A DNA stretch of 35,302 bases from contig JAMPEO010000002.1 in NCBI GenBank assembly GCA_023665105.1, positions 1 through 35,302 on the forward strand, in the 5' to 3' direction. Below the pieces are notes generated by a model that had not been told where the DNA came from, did no database searches, and saw only the letters and a program-made list of their open reading frames with translations. Shown one piece after another: positions 7,274-19,754 of the stretch (position 1 is its first letter; each line of letters begins with the position of its first letter). This DNA comes from Candidatus Gastranaerophilales bacterium. Lineage in GTDB: Bacteria; Cyanobacteriota; Vampirovibrionia; Gastranaerophilales; Gastranaerophilaceae. The position numbers were made by a program, and so were the translations under genes.

Positions 7274-9697
7274 ATGGAAAAGATTTTTGGGGATTTTATA
7301 CAAAATAAAAATGTTCTGATGTTTACTTCTGCAATCGCATATATTATGGGATTATATGCATATTTTACTGATAAACCAATTTTGTTTGCGGGAATTTTTA
7401 CATCAGTAGTTGTTATTTTATTATTAAAAAATTTTCCGTTAAAAATTGCATCTGTATGGATTATTATTTTTTATTTTGCTTTTTTTAATGCCAGTTTAAG
7501 GATTACAAATACAGATGATTTGTTTAAACTTGCACCGGTTGATTGTAAAATATACGGTCAGGTTGTTTCTATTCCAAATAGTAATATCCCGAATAATTCA
7601 AAGTTCTTTTTTAATGTACAAAAAGTTGAGTGTAATAATAAAATTTATAATCTTAATAATAAAACACTTGTGAATATGACTGTAGCACGTGATTTCTCAA
7701 TTTCTGATAATATATCTGTTGGTGAATATTATGAGTTGAAAGGTAAGCTCTCAAAGCCATTTCAAGCAACAAATCCTTCTCAGTTTTCGTATGGAAATTA
7801 TTTGAGAAATTTTAAAACATATACTGTATTCTATGCAACTGATGTCGGTGTAAAGCATATTGCACAAAATTTAACACTAAAGTGGAAAGTAGTTAAATAT
7901 CTCAATGATAAACGTAATGATATTTTAAAAACTCATTCTACCTATCTAAAAAGTCCGAATCTTGAAATACTTGGTGGTGTTGTATTTGGTGATGATGCAG
8001 TTGCTCCGCCGGATTATGTAAAAACATCTTTTATCAATTCCGGCTTACTTCATATTCTTGCTGCATCAGGCATGAATGTTGCTTTTATTAGCGGCTTTTT
8101 ATTCTTTTTCTTAAGAAGATTTGGTGTACCTTATAATATTAGAATTATTTCCGGAATATTGGTTATAATTCTGTATTCTTTGATGACAGGACTTGGTGCT
8201 TCTGTTATTAGAGCTGCTCTAATGTTAATTTTTATACTTTTGGGTAAGCTTATTGATAGAGACGCTCATAGTGTTGCTCTGTTATCGTTTGTAGGATTAT
8301 TGATGCTTATTTATAATCCTGCATATATAAACGATGTTGGTTTTCAGTTATCTTTTATAGTAACTTTTGGGATTTTGGTTTCTGCTAATGCTGTGATGAA
8401 GTATACAAAAAGAATACCGCTTTGGTTGGCAGGGGAAATTTTTATTCCTATTATTGCTCAACTTTGGGTTATTCCGATACAGATGTTTTATTTTAATACA
8501 ATAAGTACGTATTCTATCTTTGCAAATATTGCTTCGATGCCGTTTTTGTCTGTGATAAGTTTTGGAGGGTTTATCAGTTCTGTATTTTCTTTGTTTGAAC
8601 CTATTGCAGATTTTATTTGCCACTGGTTCGATTTTATACTTAACCCTATGCTCAATGCTCTTGTATGGATATCAAATTTTTTCGCAGGACTTCCTAATTC
8701 CTTATTTATAACAACGCATCCAAGTATATTGCAAGTTCTGTTATATTATGTAATTTTATCAGCGTTCGTTGTATTGCTGCATATTGAGTTCAAAAATAAA
8801 AAGTTAATTCTTTCCACAATAATAATGTCATTTGTATTGTTAATATCTGCTGTATTGCATTTACCTAATCATAAGTTTGAGGTAATAGCATTTGAAGTCG
8901 GTAATGCTGATATGTTCTTATTAAAGACACCGCAAAATAAATATTTTGTTGTTGATACGGGACGTCTTGGTTATAAAGGAAGACGTTCACAGGCTGATAT
9001 TATAATGCTTAAATATCTTAAAGATAAAGGAATAAAAGATATAGAAGGGCTTATCATAACTCACTTTGATTCGGATCATGCCGGTGGGGCTGTTGATTTA
9101 ATTCAAAATCTTAAAATAAAACATGTTTATATGAATTCTTTATCTGATAAAAAACGACTTGCATCTAATATTTATACAGTTATTGATAAGAATGTCTATA
9201 CTGATATGGTTGATGCAAAGAATAACACTCTTATATACTCTGAAAAAGATGGTTTTACAATTAAAACTTTTAGGGCAAATGTTTCTAATAAAAATGGGGA
9301 TTTGTCTGAAAATGAAAATTCTGTTATTACCCTTGTTCAGTTCGGTAAAATGTCTATGTTATTTACAGGTGATTCAGGAGTTAGGGCTTTTGAATTGCTA
9401 AAACACGAATTACCCCAAGATATAACTGTATTGAAAGTAGGGCATCACGGTGCAAAAAATGTTGTTAATAAAGAAATGCTTGATTACTTAAATCCGGAAA
9501 TATCTCTTGTATCGGTTGGTTTCAATAAATATGGTCATCCTTGCCCTTTGACTATAAAACTTTTATCCAAGACAAAACTCGTAAGAACAGATAAAATTAA
9601 CTCAATTCGTATTGTTGCAAATCAAAAAGGGTACGAAGTTGATGGATTTGATTCAAAGTCGCATAAATACTACAAGAAATATTCACGAAAGTTTTAG
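7274..9697 (+). CDS. comEC: ComEC/Rec2 DNA-uptake channel protein
   Basis: This 807-residue inner-membrane protein carries single-stranded DNA into the cytoplasm during transformation. It has N-terminal membrane spans, an OB-like periplasmic domain (about 60-200), the competence channel domain (about 210-480, many spans) and a C-terminal metallo-beta-lactamase-fold domain. Motifs of that last domain are visible: THFDSDHAGG near 596-605, LFTGDSG near 696 and HHGAKN near 722. All three classic regions are present, so the gene looks intact. No clear ribosome site precedes the ATG. Its TAG overlaps the TAA of the convergent downstream gene. Other competence genes are not in the window. Confidence 0.9.
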   Translation: MEKIFGDFIQNKNVLMFTSAIAYIMGLYAYFTDKPILFAGIFTSVVVILLLKNFPLKIASVWIIIFYFAFFNASLRITNTDDLFKLAPVDCKIYGQVVSIPNSNIPNNSKFFFNVQKVECNNKIYNLNNKTLVNMTVARDFSISDNISVGEYYELKGKLSKPFQATNPSQFSYGNYLRNFKTYTVFYATDVGVKHIAQNLTLKWKVVKYLNDKRNDILKTHSTYLKSPNLEILGGVVFGDDAVAPPDYVKTSFINSGLLHILAASGMNVAFISGFLFFFLRRFGVPYNIRIISGILVIILYSLMTGLGASVIRAALMLIFILLGKLIDRDAHSVALLSFVGLLMLIYNPAYINDVGFQLSFIVTFGILVSANAVMKYTKRIPLWLAGEIFIPIIAQLWVIPIQMFYFNTISTYSIFANIASMPFLSVISFGGFISSVFSLFEPIADFICHWFDFILNPMLNALVWISNFFAGLPNSLFITTHPSILQVLLYYVILSAFVVLLHIEFKNKKLILSTIIMSFVLLISAVLHLPNHKFEVIAFEVGNADMFLLKTPQNKYFVVDTGRLGYKGRRSQADIIMLKYLKDKGIKDIEGLIITHFDSDHAGGAVDLIQNLKIKHVYMNSLSDKKRLASNIYTVIDKNVYTDMVDAKNNTLIYSEKDGFTIKTFRANVSNKNGDLSENENSVITLVQFGKMSMLFTGDSGVRAFELLKHELPQDITVLKVGHHGAKNVVNKEMLDYLNPEISLVSVGFNKYGHPCPLTIKLLSKTKLVRTDKINSIRIVANQKGYEVDGFDSKSHKYYKKYSRKF

Positions 9698-12006
9698 ATT
9701 TTCTTCATTTCTGAAATTTCAGGATTTAACAGGCGGCGTCCAACACTTGCAAAATTAACTGAGCATAGTAATTTATCACCGTAGTTAATCATTTTTTCGA
9801 CAACGCCTTCTCCAAATTCCTCGTGCATTACTCTGTCACCTTGTTGAATGGCATCACTATTAACTTTATCTTCATCAGGAATATCAGACGGATAGACCGG
9901 TACAATTGGAGTTGTATTTGAACGTGTCTGTAATGGCTCGTCTGTTGACGGCATTTGTGCATTCATAATTTCTTCGTCTGCACCATGTTCTTCTGTTGGT
10001 ATTGGTTGTTCAATTACTTCAGGTTCAGGTACAGGTGTCGGTGATGGAGCTGCTGCTTGTTCTTGTTCAGCTTCTTGATTGATTATAGATATTTCCTCAT
10101 CAGGTTTTGATAATTCTTCTATCATATCTAAGTCATCATCTGAAAGTTCTTCGTCATCTTCCATGTCAGGAACTGCTTCAAGAGCTTCTTCTACTTCGTT
10201 CATAACAGGTTCTTCTGTTTGTTGTACTACTTCTGTCATTGCCTCTTCCGGTAATACATTAACAGGTGTTTCTTGTGTTATATTTTCTTCAACATCTGTT
10301 GTTTCTGCTTCTATTTCTATTTCTTCTATTTCTGTTTGTACAATTTCTTCAGCAATAGGTGCTTCGATTTCTTGAACAGGAACTACTTCTTCAATTAGTT
10401 CGATATCTTCATTTAATTCGTTTTCAACAGAATTATCGCTTTCGATTTCTTGTTGTTCTTCTGTAGTAGCATCATCATCATCTTCTTCATCATCATCATC
10501 ATCATCATCATCTTCTTCTTCTTCAATGCTTTCTTCTGCAGGTATTTCAGTATCGTTTTCAGGTGTTTCTATTGTTTCTTCAATATCAGTTGAATTTTCA
10601 ATCGATTCTACGAGTTCTTCTACTAATTCTTCTTCAACCGCATCTTGCTGTAATACTTGAACAGGCACTGGTTCTTCTTCTAATATTACAGGTTCAATAG
10701 TAGTTTCTTCTATAGATACTTCATTTATATCTTCTTGAAGTGGTTCTTCAATTACAGGTTGAATAATCTGTTCCGCTTGAACTGTTTGACAAATAGGTTC
10801 TGTTATTTTTGGTGTATAAATTTCTTCTGATTTGAGTTGATGAAGTTTTGCAATCAGCGGTACAAATTTTGTCATTTTACCGTAAGCAATAAATTCATCT
10901 TCTGCCATTTTTTGCAAGAATATATTATATCCGCCAAAATCTTTTTGTTGTTTTAGCGGTGTGAACATAAGCATATTCTTAGAACATTTTTTTAAATCGG
11001 TAAGTAGTTTATAATCATATCCGCAAATTATTGATGTGTGAACATTTTCTGTGTCAGAAATCTGTTTTAATATCAATTTATCGGAGTTATCATTTGTTAC
11101 CGGTGTGAATGCATAAAATTCTGAGTTTATTTCTTGAAGCACCGAATATATATATTTGATACATTCTTTTTGCAAGCTTTCTTGTATACAAGAAATATCT
11201 ATTACAACTGTATTTTCTGTTTCAAATTTCGTTTTTAATATTGAAAAATCTTGTTCGTTTTGTGCAAAAACATTCCAATCTCTTATTTGTTTGATTTTAT
11301 TTTTCAAAATTACAAGCTGCATTAGTCTGGTTCGCATAAATTCAGAATCAATAACAGCTTTGAATGTGTCAAACGGAATAAATTCAACAGTTTTAGAATA
11401 TTCACTTAACTCTTCAAATATTGCTTGAATCATTGACTTGCTTTCAGCAGTCGCATCTTCAAACCCCTTTTCATAAATATAGTTTATAGTTGAAGAATTT
11501 AGCGGAAGTTTGAAATCTTTTGTTAAGGTAATTTTATTTGATTTAAATATACCTGTGGTATCAAAAACAACAATTTTTTGTTTTCTTGCTTGTAGTTGTA
11601 ATGCTAGATTATTTAATAGAACTTTCGTTGTAAAGAACTTTTCAGCACAAATAATAGGGTTATCTTTTAGAATATTAAAATCCACAATAAGTTTATTTTG
11701 TTGCTGTGCAAGATTACATAAGTTGAGCGGGTCTGAATGCTCAAGAGAGTCTAGTAATACAGATGAATCTATTGGTTCAAGTTCAGCTCTTAGTGATGGA
11801 ATAGAACCATCATAGGCAGAGATGCCATTATTATATTTGAAAATTAATTTTGCAATAGCTACTTTACCAATTCTTGTTGCTTCAAGGTGAAGTACTTGTG
11901 CAATATAACTGTTTTGACTATCTGTTATTTTGATGAATCCTGATAAAACAAGTTCATTTTCATAACATAATTTTATCAAACTATTCTTAACTTCAATAAT
12001 ATTCAT
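9694..12006 (-). CDS. HerA-like degenerate ATPase with acidic disordered region and UvrD/PcrA-type C-terminal domain
   Basis: I do not know a named family for this 770-residue protein. Residues 1-80 resemble the HAS-barrel found at the front of HerA-type ATPases. About 115-400 follow the HerA layout, including VVFDTTGIF (146-154) and a strand like Walker B (VVIDIS, about 267). The P-loop position (AEKFFTTKVLLNNLA, 121-135) lacks the GxGKS/T residues, so ATP hydrolysis is doubtful. About 407-700 is an extremely acidic low-complexity region with runs of Asp and Glu. The last 50 residues (GDRVMHEEFGEGVV, then a basic RRLL) match the Tudor-like tail of PcrA/UvrD helicases, which binds RNA polymerase. 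A DNA- or transcription-related scaffold is plausible. Confidence 0.6.
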   Translation of the reverse strand: MNIIEVKNSLIKLCYENELVLSGFIKITDSQNSYIAQVLHLEATRIGKVAIAKLIFKYNNGISAYDGSIPSLRAELEPIDSSVLLDSLEHSDPLNLCNLAQQQNKLIVDFNILKDNPIICAEKFFTTKVLLNNLALQLQARKQKIVVFDTTGIFKSNKITLTKDFKLPLNSSTINYIYEKGFEDATAESKSMIQAIFEELSEYSKTVEFIPFDTFKAVIDSEFMRTRLMQLVILKNKIKQIRDWNVFAQNEQDFSILKTKFETENTVVIDISCIQESLQKECIKYIYSVLQEINSEFYAFTPVTNDNSDKLILKQISDTENVHTSIICGYDYKLLTDLKKCSKNMLMFTPLKQQKDFGGYNIFLQKMAEDEFIAYGKMTKFVPLIAKLHQLKSEEIYTPKITEPICQTVQAEQIIQPVIEEPLQEDINEVSIEETTIEPVILEEEPVPVQVLQQDAVEEELVEELVESIENSTDIEETIETPENDTEIPAEESIEEEEDDDDDDDDEEDDDDATTEEQQEIESDNSVENELNEDIELIEEVVPVQEIEAPIAEEIVQTEIEEIEIEAETTDVEENITQETPVNVLPEEAMTEVVQQTEEPVMNEVEEALEAVPDMEDDEELSDDDLDMIEELSKPDEEISIINQEAEQEQAAAPSPTPVPEPEVIEQPIPTEEHGADEEIMNAQMPSTDEPLQTRSNTTPIVPVYPSDIPDEDKVNSDAIQQGDRVMHEEFGEGVVEKMINYGDKLLCSVNFASVGRRLLNPEISEMKKI
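10470..10525. repeat. Trinucleotide (GAT/GAA) microsatellite inside the acidic gene
   Basis: On the plus strand this is a run of CAT and CTT triplets, which read GAT and GAA (Asp, Glu) in the minus-strand gene. They encode the Asp-rich run at about residues 494-512. Slippage would change the length in steps of one residue without breaking the frame. Confidence 0.85.
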
Positions 12007-15451: not shown

Positions 15452-17827
15452 TTAACTTCCTAAAAGTAAAGTTCCGTCCAGCGTGAGGTTTGTTGTATCT
15501 TTTAGCTGAGGATAATTTTCTATATTATTGTTCTTTACGAAATCAATCGCAGAACTTCTTGCTATTTCAAGAATTTTTGCATCTCTTACGATATCTGAAA
15601 TCATTAAATCAGGTAGCCCGCTTTGTCGTACCCCTAAAAATTCTCCAGGTCCTCTTATTTCTAAGTCTTTTTCCGCAATGACAAATCCGTCATTTGTTTC
15701 AGTCATTACTGATAAGCGATGTTTGACATCTTGTGATGAAGAAGATGTTGTCAGGATACAATATGATTGAAGATTGCATCTTCCTACCCGTCCTCTTAGC
15801 TGATGAAGTTGTGATAACCCGAATCTTTCTGAATTTTCTATTACAATAACGGTGGCATTTGGAACGTCAACACCAACTTCTACAACGGTAGTTGCTACAA
15901 GAATATTATATTCTCCGTTCTTGAATTTTTCCATAACTTCATCTTTTTCTGCGTTTCTTAGTTTCCCGTGAAGAAGTCCTATTTTTAAATCGTTAAAAAC
16001 AGTTTCTTGTAAACGTTCTGCTTCTTTTGTTGCGGCTTTTGCTGATAAGGTTTCGCTTTCATCAATTAACGGATAAACAATATATGCTTGATGACCTGCC
16101 TTAATTTCATCACGAATAAGTGTGTATATCTGTTTCTTTGTCATTCCCATTTTGGTAATGATTGGTTTTCTGCCTTTTGGCAGCTCATCTATAATCGTTA
16201 AGTCTAAATCACCATTCATTGTGATTGCTAATGTTCTTGGAATAGGAGTTGCAGTCATTGTTAAAGTTTGAGGATTATGTGCTTTTTTTCTTAGCTCAAG
16301 ACGCTGTTTAACGCCAAATCTGTGTTGTTCATCAATTACAACAGCTCCAAGATTAGCAAAATCTACGCTATCTTGAATCAAGGCGTGGGTGCCTACAGCA
16401 ATATTTATCTGCCCGTTTCTTAGTCCTGTTTCGAATTCTTGTCTTTCTTTTTTTCTAAGACTTCCTAAGAATAATCCAACACTTAAACCAAGAGGAGTAA
16501 GCCATTTTACGAGGTTGTTGTAATGCTGTTGAGCAAGTATTTCTGTCGGAGCCATCATAGCTGCTTGGTATCCGTTTTCAACAGCAGCAAGAAGCATAAT
16601 GCAGGCAACAATAGTTTTCCCGCTGCCGACATCTCCTTGCAGAAGTCTTTGCATTGGTTCTGTGGAATTCATATCGTTTAAGATTTCGTTTACAGCTTTT
16701 TTCTGTGCTCCGGTTAGTTCGAATGGTAAACTTTTTATAAATCGCATTACAAGTCCATCTGTCTGTACTTGTAATGGCAAAGATTTATTTTCGATTTTAT
16801 TTGTTTCTCTTGCTATGGCAAGTTTTAGTTGTATTAAAAATAATTCCTCAAAAATCAATGAAAAGCGGGCTTTTTCTAATTGTTCCAAACTATCCGGAAA
16901 ATGAATTTGTTCGACAGCTTCTTTTTTATCTAATAGTCCGTATTTTTGACGTAAATAGTCAGGAACAACATTTACAATAGTTTCTTTATAGCATTGTATT
17001 GCATTGTAAATAGCTTTGCGTAATGTTTTTATATTTAATTTTTCGCTTAAGGAATACACTGGTACTATTCTTGCCAGATTAAGGTTTGTGTTTGTTAGAA
17101 AATCTTCTGACATTATTGAATATGTAGTATTTTCAAGTGTGTATTTCCCGTCATAAGAGTTCATTTTTACGGTTCCGGAAATGACAATACCTGCTCCCGT
17201 AGGGAATTGACGTTTAGAACGTTCGAGAATGAATTTTGAGCTTTTTGCAAAAAAGAAACATAGTTCTATACTTCCGGTTTCATCTGCAATGCGAACTTTC
17301 ATAACACCTAATCCTTTAGGAGTTACAAAACAATCAACGGATTTTATGTAGGCAAATACGGTGGTTGTTTGTCCAAGCTCAAGGTTTTTTATCAAAGTTC
17401 TTTGTGAATAGTCAATATGTTTACGAGGAAAATAAAATAATAAATCACTCGCTGTGAATATTCCAAGTTTATTAAGCATAGCTCCAACTTTTGGACCTAC
17501 ACCTTTTACGTATGTTACAGAAGAAAACGGATTAGGTTTACCATTTTCGTCTTTAATCGGATTGTTTGCTTTTTCGTCAAGTTCAAGTTTTAGAACTTTT
17601 ACAAAGTATTCAATAGCAATTTTTCTATCCGGTAAAGATGATGTTGAGTACATTTCAAAGTATTTTAAAATGACTTTCCATCTTTCCGGAATAGATGATT
17701 TTTTAATAATTTTTCTTATATGTGAGCACATAAAAGCAGAAAAATATTGTTGTTTTCCACGAATATTTATATATTTGTTTTTTACTTCTACATTTATGGC
17801 TTTTTTTATGATTTCTAAATTATCCAA
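15452..17827 (-). CDS. recG: ATP-dependent DNA helicase RecG
   Basis: RecG remodels stalled forks and branched DNA. The 791-residue protein has an N-terminal extension of about 100 residues, a helix-hairpin-like stretch (YVKGVGPKVGAMLNK) leading to the OB wedge domain, and two helicase domains. Visible motifs are Walker A GDVGSGKT (about 398-405), DEQHRFG (about 496), TATPIPRT and the motif VI-like RGRVGRC. The apparent start is TTG at 17827, overlapping the last eight bases of the cyclase gene. The next in-frame Met is residue 33, so the exact start is uncertain. Cotranscription with the cyclase is likely. Confidence 0.93.
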   Translation of the reverse strand: MDNLEIIKKAINVEVKNKYINIRGKQQYFSAFMCSHIRKIIKKSSIPERWKVILKYFEMYSTSSLPDRKIAIEYFVKVLKLELDEKANNPIKDENGKPNPFSSVTYVKGVGPKVGAMLNKLGIFTASDLLFYFPRKHIDYSQRTLIKNLELGQTTTVFAYIKSVDCFVTPKGLGVMKVRIADETGSIELCFFFAKSSKFILERSKRQFPTGAGIVISGTVKMNSYDGKYTLENTTYSIMSEDFLTNTNLNLARIVPVYSLSEKLNIKTLRKAIYNAIQCYKETIVNVVPDYLRQKYGLLDKKEAVEQIHFPDSLEQLEKARFSLIFEELFLIQLKLAIARETNKIENKSLPLQVQTDGLVMRFIKSLPFELTGAQKKAVNEILNDMNSTEPMQRLLQGDVGSGKTIVACIMLLAAVENGYQAAMMAPTEILAQQHYNNLVKWLTPLGLSVGLFLGSLRKKERQEFETGLRNGQINIAVGTHALIQDSVDFANLGAVVIDEQHRFGVKQRLELRKKAHNPQTLTMTATPIPRTLAITMNGDLDLTIIDELPKGRKPIITKMGMTKKQIYTLIRDEIKAGHQAYIVYPLIDESETLSAKAATKEAERLQETVFNDLKIGLLHGKLRNAEKDEVMEKFKNGEYNILVATTVVEVGVDVPNATVIVIENSERFGLSQLHQLRGRVGRCNLQSYCILTTSSSSQDVKHRLSVMTETNDGFVIAEKDLEIRGPGEFLGVRQSGLPDLMISDIVRDAKILEIARSSAIDFVKNNNIENYPQLKDTTNLTLDGTLLLGS

Positions 17828-19754
17828 TTAAGCGAATAACCTCGTATAAGTCTAAAGTATGTTCTTTACCTCTGATTTTTACATTTGATATTTTAACAAT
17901 ATCAACAATTCCTCTTACGTGTGCATAAGTTGAACTGCTTATAAGAAGATTTGTTTTATATATTTTATTGTTACCTTCAATTCTGCTTGCAAGGTTTACC
18001 ATATCGCCGATAACGGTATATTCCATACGTTTTTCTGAACCTATATTACCAACGAAAGCCTCACCTGTATTTATCCCAATACCGATTTCTATTTTTGGTT
18101 TTCCCTCTTCCAGCCATTTAGTCTGAAGTTCTTTTACCTTATCTAACATTTCGCAGGCACATTTTACTGCGTTTTTAGGGTGATTTTCATCTTGAATAGG
18201 CTCGCCAAATATTGCCATAACAGCATCACCGATAAATTTATTTATGACTCCGTTGTTTCTTGTTACAATAGGCTCTATTTCAGTAAAATATTCGTTTAAA
18301 ATCACAGAAACTTCATCTGCAGAAAGTTTTTCACTCATTGATGTGAAACCTCTTATATCGGCAAATAAAACTGTAACATTTGCTTTTTTCCCGCCAAGTT
18401 TTAATTCATCTATGTTTTTTACAACACTTTTCATAATGTCTTCTGAAATGTATTTACCCATAGCAGATTTTATTTTTTCTTTATTTCTGTCTTCAAGAAT
18501 ATACTTATGTGAATATGCAAAAATCATAGTAATTATTGTCATTGATATTGGAGTTATAGTATTGATTGCGTATCCGTGACGATATAGCAATGCACATAAT
18601 GTAATGTATGCAATAATAATAATTGATACTTCTGTTAAAGCAATGAATAATGTATGTTTTCTAATTATTATAAATGTAAGAAGCATTAGTGATAATGCAA
18701 AGAATACATTTTGCCAGTCCTGAAGTTCGTACATGAAGTATTTGTTCAAAATGTTATCTAATGTAGTTGCTTGAATATCAAGTCCAGAATGTTCGTTAGA
18801 TATAGGTGTTCTTTTTACATCAGCTAAGCCTGTTGCTGCTGCTTTTACATTAGCACCGATAAGAACAATTTTATTGTCAAATTCTGATGGGTCAACTAAT
18901 GGCTTTTGACCTAGTTTTAATTCTTTATAAGAATCCATAATATCTATGGCAGAGTACGTTTTATGCGAATACGAAGAAGATGACGGATTAGGTTGATAGA
19001 ATCTTAAATGAGAGAAAATCCCTTCATTTTCACGATTTGTAGGAATGTGTACCTTACTTTTATCGCCAATTATTTCTCTGTCTGTTATGCAAAAACCTTC
19101 ATTGTCATTTATATATGAAAATGCACGGAGAGCTAACGATGGATATATTGTCCCTTTATAATTGATTGCATTTATCGCAACACGCAGGTATCCGTCAGCT
19201 CCTCTTGCAGTGGTTATAGAACCTGCCATTTTTATAGAATCCAGATAAGCTTCAGGAAAAATAACTGCACTTTTGAATGGAAAATCATTTGCGTGTATAC
19301 GTAAATCATTTATATCAATAGCAAGTTTATTATGAAATTTTTTATCGTATTCTTCTCCAAACTTTTTATCATAATAAGGTCTTGCACTAAAGGTTGTTCC
19401 TACAACAAGGTTGTTCATTTGTTTTAGGCAATTAAAATATTCTCTGTCTGCTTGAATATCGTCATTTGAAGTTACAATGCTATCAGAGATAACAACTTTT
19501 GCTTTTGTGTATTCTCTGAAATAGTTATAAATTCCGCAATATAAATTACGTTTCCAAGGCCATCTGTGTCTGCCGATAGATTTATCATCAATTACAATTA
19601 GGACAATATTGTCACTCCCTGCTTTGTTCGCAGTGAATGTTTTAACCATATAATTATATGCTTTAGGTTCAAAAAATTCGTCAGTTGCCCAATAAGCAAG
19701 CCACAAAAATAAACCTATTGATAATAGCAATAATAAAAATTTTAAAAATCTCAT
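17820..19754 (-). CDS. Class III adenylate cyclase with CHASE2 sensor
   Basis: This 644-residue membrane receptor probably makes cAMP from ATP. It has one N-terminal span (about 4-24), an extracytoplasmic CHASE2 domain (about 30-345), three C-terminal spans (about 348-420) and a cytoplasmic cyclase domain (about 455-640). Metal ligands are in FADIRGFTSM (about 463-472) and IGDAVMAIFG (about 508). The lysine of NKFIGD and the aspartate of VIGDMVNLASR fit ATP rather than GTP specificity. CHASE2-cyclases are frequent in cyanobacteria. AAGAGG precedes the ATG. It is divergent from the aldolase gene and overlaps recG downstream. Confidence 0.9.
   Translation of the reverse strand: MRFLKFLLLLLSIGLFLWLAYWATDEFFEPKAYNYMVKTFTANKAGSDNIVLIVIDDKSIGRHRWPWKRNLYCGIYNYFREYTKAKVVISDSIVTSNDDIQADREYFNCLKQMNNLVVGTTFSARPYYDKKFGEEYDKKFHNKLAIDINDLRIHANDFPFKSAVIFPEAYLDSIKMAGSITTARGADGYLRVAINAINYKGTIYPSLALRAFSYINDNEGFCITDREIIGDKSKVHIPTNRENEGIFSHLRFYQPNPSSSSYSHKTYSAIDIMDSYKELKLGQKPLVDPSEFDNKIVLIGANVKAAATGLADVKRTPISNEHSGLDIQATTLDNILNKYFMYELQDWQNVFFALSLMLLTFIIIRKHTLFIALTEVSIIIIAYITLCALLYRHGYAINTITPISMTIITMIFAYSHKYILEDRNKEKIKSAMGKYISEDIMKSVVKNIDELKLGGKKANVTVLFADIRGFTSMSEKLSADEVSVILNEYFTEIEPIVTRNNGVINKFIGDAVMAIFGEPIQDENHPKNAVKCACEMLDKVKELQTKWLEEGKPKIEIGIGINTGEAFVGNIGSEKRMEYTVIGDMVNLASRIEGNNKIYKTNLLISSSTYAHVRGIVDIVKISNVKIRGKEHTLDLYEVIRLIG

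Follow-up and report, generated by a model that had tools for sequence, protein, structure and literature searches.

The window analysed here, a 35,302-nucleotide stretch of DNA from a Candidatus Gastranaerophilales bacterium, includes a gene on the minus strand (positions 9694–12006) encoding a protein of 770 amino acids from an ATG start codon. The protein is predicted to comprise a HerA-fold pseudo-ATPase, an acidic linker and a PcrA/UvrD-type Tudor tail, and is hereafter referred to as the HerA-Tudor protein; the coordinates given for its features are all on the minus strand. The plus strand across 9694–12006 shows no open frame and many stops. The gene converges with comEC (7274–9697, plus strand), and the stop codons of the two genes overlap by four bases, at 9694–9697. 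The original prediction, made from sequence alone, did not include the minus-strand orientation, the two linker motifs, the distribution as a core gene across the order, or the loss of catalytic motifs other than the P-loop, all described below.

The N-terminal region was assigned by combining structure prediction with profile searches. In an AlphaFold model of residues 1–395 (pLDDT 91.5, pTM 0.88), a barrel of strands precedes a RecA-like core into which helices are inserted. The HAS-like beta barrel spans residues 1–79 (11770–12006), as identified from the AlphaFold secondary structure and the Foldseek match to HerA. The HerA-like RecA core, supported by profile, AlphaFold and Foldseek, spans residues 93–395 (10822–11730), and the helical bundle inserted within it corresponds in the AlphaFold model to residues 171–263 (11218–11496). 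When this model was compared to the PDB with Foldseek, the top match was HerA (4d2i, E-value 2.4e-15), with a query-normalised TM-score of up to 0.73, and most of the 50 matches listed were HerA or HerA complexes, the remainder being four TdpAB chains and complexes with generic titles or none. The alignments of the core show an rmsd of 5–10 Å over gapped columns.

At the sequence level, the window protein on its own matches the HerA family PF01935 below threshold (E-value 0.12), while 19 of the 68 family members match it, the best at 2e-9. A profile of the family retrieves the solved HerA 4d2i (E-value 3.1e-7), and a profile-profile comparison to three true HerAs of this order yielded a probability of 94 and an E-value of 1.4e-7 over 393 columns. 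Together, the sequence profiles and the structural model place residues 1–395 in the HerA (PF01935) fold family. Side matches to T6SS_Tdi1_C, YqeC, SepF and twinfilin, in Pfam or the PDB, were judged to be due to chance, as they are weak, differ from one member to the next and are overridden by the fold evidence.

The HerA-Tudor protein thus shares with HerA (4d2i from Sulfolobus; FtsK-HerA superfamily) the fold, in which the HAS barrel precedes the RecA core, and the inserted helical bundle. It differs from it in that the corresponding region is shorter (∼395 residues, against ∼460–600), that a linker and a Tudor domain are added, and that the catalytic motifs are lost. Profile alignment to true HerAs, together with a table of the alignment columns, locates a degenerate Walker A at residues 121–128 (AEKFFTTK; 11623–11646), with T127 at the position of the lysine and K128 at that of the serine/threonine. 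Neither [AG]xxxxGK[ST] nor GxGK is found anywhere in the 770 residues, no P-loop was found in any family member searched, and none of 68 sequences has a glycine at either of the two Walker A glycine positions checked (124 and 126). A lysine or arginine occupies the Walker A lysine position in 14 of the 68, mostly in the more distant families, and in two members it is followed by a threonine, in both cases without the glycines.

The site of the lost Walker B/DEAH motif, as located by alignment to true HerAs, corresponds to residues 299–308 (11083–11112), where T304 and N305 align with the DE of DEAH. On this alignment, both DEAH and the GRK motif that holds the arginine finger are missing from the family. 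The DEAH region aligns less securely than the Walker A region, and the loss of Walker A is therefore the stronger claim: the alignments indicate that Walker A is lost, and that Walker B/DEAH and the arginine finger apparently are too. Other landmarks are retained. D149 (11560–11562), the aspartate of the HerA DxxGEY motif, is invariant (68/68), and D270, S272 and N344 are kept in 60, 62 and 66 of 68 sequences, respectively; this aspartate is common to HerA, as are a DxS strand and a conserved asparagine and glycine near the end of the core. Since a lysine or arginine persists at the Walker A lysine position in some members, weak nucleotide binding is possible in the basal families. The HAS-like barrel and HerA-like core devoid of a P-loop, as originally predicted, are borne out by the motif search, the family profile and the AlphaFold and Foldseek results; the motif search found no intact P-loop elsewhere in the protein.

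I also searched for true HerA and for NurA in these genomes. No PF01935 match, and hence no true HerA, was found in the window's own genome, which is 85% complete, and strong true HerAs are present in just three of 38 relatives. All three possess intact GSGKS and DEAH motifs, and each adjoins a gene that appears SIR2-like by eye; these are probably defence pairs. NurA was likewise not found in the own genome (at the same completeness) or in 37 of 38 relatives, with a weak fragment in the remaining one, which further distinguishes the HerA-Tudor protein from HerA. Judged by sequence, of the features that would mark an active HerA, it lacks Walker A and the NurA partner, and apparently also the Walker B/DEAH and arginine-finger motifs. 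The HerA fold is also present in the SIR2-HerA and DUF4297-HerA defence proteins; however, these pair HerA with a second effector protein, whereas the HerA-Tudor gene belongs to the core genome of its order. It has no HerA-type match in PADLOC-DB, and a role as a defence element was rejected on this basis.

Residues 396–718 (9853–10821) form an acidic, low-complexity linker, as defined by composition. The acidic linker of the original prediction is confirmed, with 116 aspartates and glutamates and three lysines and arginines between residues 401 and 720. Two short motifs are conserved within it. Motif 1 (residues 621–629, LSDDDLDMI; 10120–10146) follows the family pattern L[ST][ED][ED]DL[DN][LMF][IL] and occurs in 55 of the 78 linkers, where shuffled sequences would be expected to give 0.005; used as a DNA pattern, it matches once per genome in five of five genomes, always within the HerA-Tudor gene. 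Motif 2 (residues 702–705, VPVY; 9892–9903), just ahead of the Tudor domain, follows the pattern [VIL]P[VI][YF] and is found in 74 of 78 linkers, against 1.5 expected, with the proline conserved in 64 of 65 sequences and the tyrosine or phenylalanine in 63 of 65. The patterns used for the search were slightly looser than those written here, and were chosen after viewing a set of related sequences, so that the expected counts are a rough guide; the linkers do, however, vary widely in length.

The C-terminal ∼52 residues (719–770; 9697–9852) are identified as a PcrA/UvrD-type Tudor domain by PF21196, the family profile and Foldseek. Alone, the window protein matches PF21196 (PcrA_UvrD_tudor) with an E-value of 0.0018, under the curated cut-off, and several family members score above it; the family profile matches solved UvrD tails with E-values of 3.7e-7 to 4e-6. 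The C-terminal 84 residues were also modelled with AlphaFold, with a pLDDT of 77.9 overall and ∼81–89 over the Tudor part, and the best eight PDB matches obtained with this model are all PcrA/UvrD tails. One of the matches, 7egs, shows the UvrD tail on the lobe of the E. coli RNA polymerase. The RNA polymerase-interacting Tudor domains of Mfd and CarD share the general fold and the use in docking, but match more weakly in both fold and sequence. Sequence and model thus both identify this region as a PcrA/UvrD Tudor domain, as had been proposed for the C-terminal module, and structural counterparts were found for this end of the protein as well as for the HerA-like one. No SF1 helicase core is present in the window protein, and the tail alone matches PcrA/UvrD; the HerA-Tudor protein is not a PcrA/UvrD helicase.

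Mutagenesis has shown that H681, W684, K712 and L714 of Geobacillus PcrA play a role in RNA polymerase binding (PMC5397179). By alignment, with the equivalences placed via E. coli UvrD, the PcrA residues H681, W684, F705, K712 and L714 correspond to H728, F731, F752, R758 and L760 of the window protein. The lysine K708 of E. coli UvrD is the same as PcrA K712. Across the family, these positions are occupied by H in 52 of 65 sequences, Y/F in 64, and F, R/K and L in all 65, so that the alignment indicates that the partner-binding face of PcrA is kept at five of five tested positions. The domain therefore has the fold, the sequence profile and the binding face in common with the PcrA/UvrD Tudor (PF21196; 5dma, 7egs, 7egt, 9dqs), and in PcrA, too, a long disordered linker leads to this domain (PMC8318588). 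It differs in that it is attached to a dead HerA core rather than an SF1 helicase, that the key lysine is replaced by an arginine in 60 of 65 members, and that it terminates with GRRLLDP, a signature specific to this family. Most relatives possess two PF21196 proteins, namely PcrA (∼850 amino acids) and the HerA-Tudor protein.

The PcrA tail binds RNA polymerase (PMC5397179; PMC8318588), docking on a hairpin with the sequence [VIL]DxxTGE[VIL][VILT] that is found both in UvrB and in RpoB, where it lies within the SI1 insert (PMC8318588). I therefore looked for this hairpin in both proteins. It is present in UvrB in nine of nine genomes of the order, as IDxxTGE in five and IDxxSGE in four, and the UvrB of the window's own genome and genus has SGE rather than TGE. 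For RpoB, neither an SI1-type insert nor the helicase interaction motif was found in the corresponding region in nine genomes of the order; a conserved stretch near residue 95, RDTGEIKEQEVY, is a different segment of RpoB. The hairpin being present in UvrB and the motif missing from RpoB, the balance shifts from RNA polymerase to UvrB, which from motif presence would be the better-supported candidate partner. RNA polymerase binding through the PcrA-type tail had been suggested originally; the type of tail is upheld, but the route to RNA polymerase is weakened by the state of RpoB in these nine genomes. The PcrA of the order retains its own Tudor domain, although RpoB lacks the SI1-type docking insert. 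When the own genome was scanned with the PcrA docking motif, the two matches both fell in ORFs resembling secreted or surface proteins, and neither was informative. No conserved operon with uvr genes was seen at the loci examined.

Members of the HerA-Tudor family were identified in 145 of the 146 genomes of the order, covering all 40 genera and seven families. The exception is 99% complete, and may represent an assembly gap or a true loss. Each genome has a single match to the N-terminal region, except for one weak second match. A profile of residues 1–402, built from 68 sequences and used with an E-value threshold of 0.001, matches 107 of 108 genomes of the order, but gives no match in 136 genomes from elsewhere in the phylum; a looser search across the class returned a single weak, partial match outside the order (E-value 0.005). 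The architecture is constant, with a core of ∼395 amino acids, an acidic linker of 136–774 and a Tudor end. The dN/dS ratio is ∼0.13–0.19 over residues 1–395 in comparison to three relatives, and ∼0.07 over the Tudor tail for one pair, a second Tudor pair being saturated at synonymous sites; these values indicate that the protein is under purifying selection. It is therefore a core gene of the order, and its presence throughout the order, with none seen outside, suggests a single origin at the base of the lineage. A chance ORF or a pseudogene is ruled out by these homologues and by the purifying selection. I found no Pfam or NCBIfam model dedicated to the family, and rejected a mobile-element origin, as tblastn against phages and plasmids gave no match.

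The genomic surroundings vary. The adjacency to comEC is unique to the window locus: comEC was not found in the available flanks of seven other loci of the same genus, or at about 40 loci from other genera and families. A functional link between the two, and with it the proposed connection to incoming DNA, was therefore rejected, comEC being a chance neighbour. At twelve loci of the window's own family, the HerA-Tudor gene follows two genes that, by eye, resemble nadD and yqeK. At nine loci in four other families, its divergent neighbour is a ComM-like Mg-chelatase gene, and at eight loci a gene of 151–162 amino acids, for which no convincing Pfam match was obtained, lies immediately upstream. 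No neighbour is conserved across the order, and context therefore yields no firm function.

Taking these observations together, I tentatively favour a model, to which I would give somewhat less than an even chance, in which the HerA-Tudor protein is an ATP-dead scaffold of HerA fold, docking through its PcrA-type Tudor domain on UvrB or on some other partner of PcrA. The HerA-like core would self-assemble as in HerA, acting as a passive clamp or platform and not as a pump, and the acidic tether would let the Tudor domain reach out. This domain may dock on the TGE/SGE hairpin of UvrB, or less likely on RNA polymerase, while the two conserved linker motifs may bind further partners. Such a scaffold could recruit or hold its partners, or compete for them with PcrA/UvrD, in nucleotide excision repair or transcription. 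A more specific proposal, in which it is an order-wide core factor of repair or transcription forming a passive, probably ring-shaped DNA clamp, with the Tudor domain bringing UvrB (or RNA polymerase), the linker motifs bringing other proteins, and PcrA/UvrD as competitors, is rather unlikely. A transcription-elongation accessory factor, with the Tudor domain on RNA polymerase, as for PcrA/UvrD, Mfd and CarD, and the HerA-like core on upstream DNA, is unlikely: the type of Tudor domain, its weaker resemblance to those of Mfd and CarD, the UvrD tail on the polymerase lobe in 7egs and the reported PcrA binding (PMC5397179; PMC8318588) are in its favour, but RpoB in the nine genomes offers neither SI1-type insert nor helicase interaction motif, and PcrA in the same cell bears the same kind of Tudor domain.

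The remaining possibilities would give the domains other roles. The GRRLLDP signature and the two linker motifs, all particular to this family, would suit a structural scaffold of the nucleoid or of cell organisation, unrelated to PcrA partners and with a repurposed Tudor domain; this is quite improbable given that the partner-binding face of PcrA is kept at all five positions tested. I give slightly less credence still to a partner in DNA uptake or recombination, where the dead core would be a passive DNA clamp in a ComM/ComEC context. The divergent ComM-like gene in four other families, the small upstream gene and the convergent comEC of the window point in that direction, but the ComM arrangement was not seen in loci of the window's own family, and comEC does not adjoin the gene at other loci of the genus. 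Least probable by some way is a nucleotide-regulated translocase of HerA type with a non-canonical nucleotide pocket, as the intact fold, the invariant D149 and the occasional lysine or arginine at the Walker A position are set against a family without the Walker A glycines, the DEAH glutamate or the GRK finger.

These bacteria are non-photosynthetic gut relatives of cyanobacteria, and the HerA-Tudor protein carried by nearly all members of the order suggests an undescribed factor that docks on proteins of DNA repair or transcription. It also lets one ask if the PcrA Tudor is a portable docking module for reaching, or competing for, UvrB or RNA polymerase. In the open-access literature, I found no description of a catalytically dead HerA or of any fusion between HerA and the Tudor domain of PcrA, and nothing relevant on the repair or competence biology of the order. 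Elsewhere in the window, positions 17820–19754 encode a fusion of a CHASE2 sensor domain with an adenylate/guanylate cyclase domain, in a gene that overlaps the start of recG.
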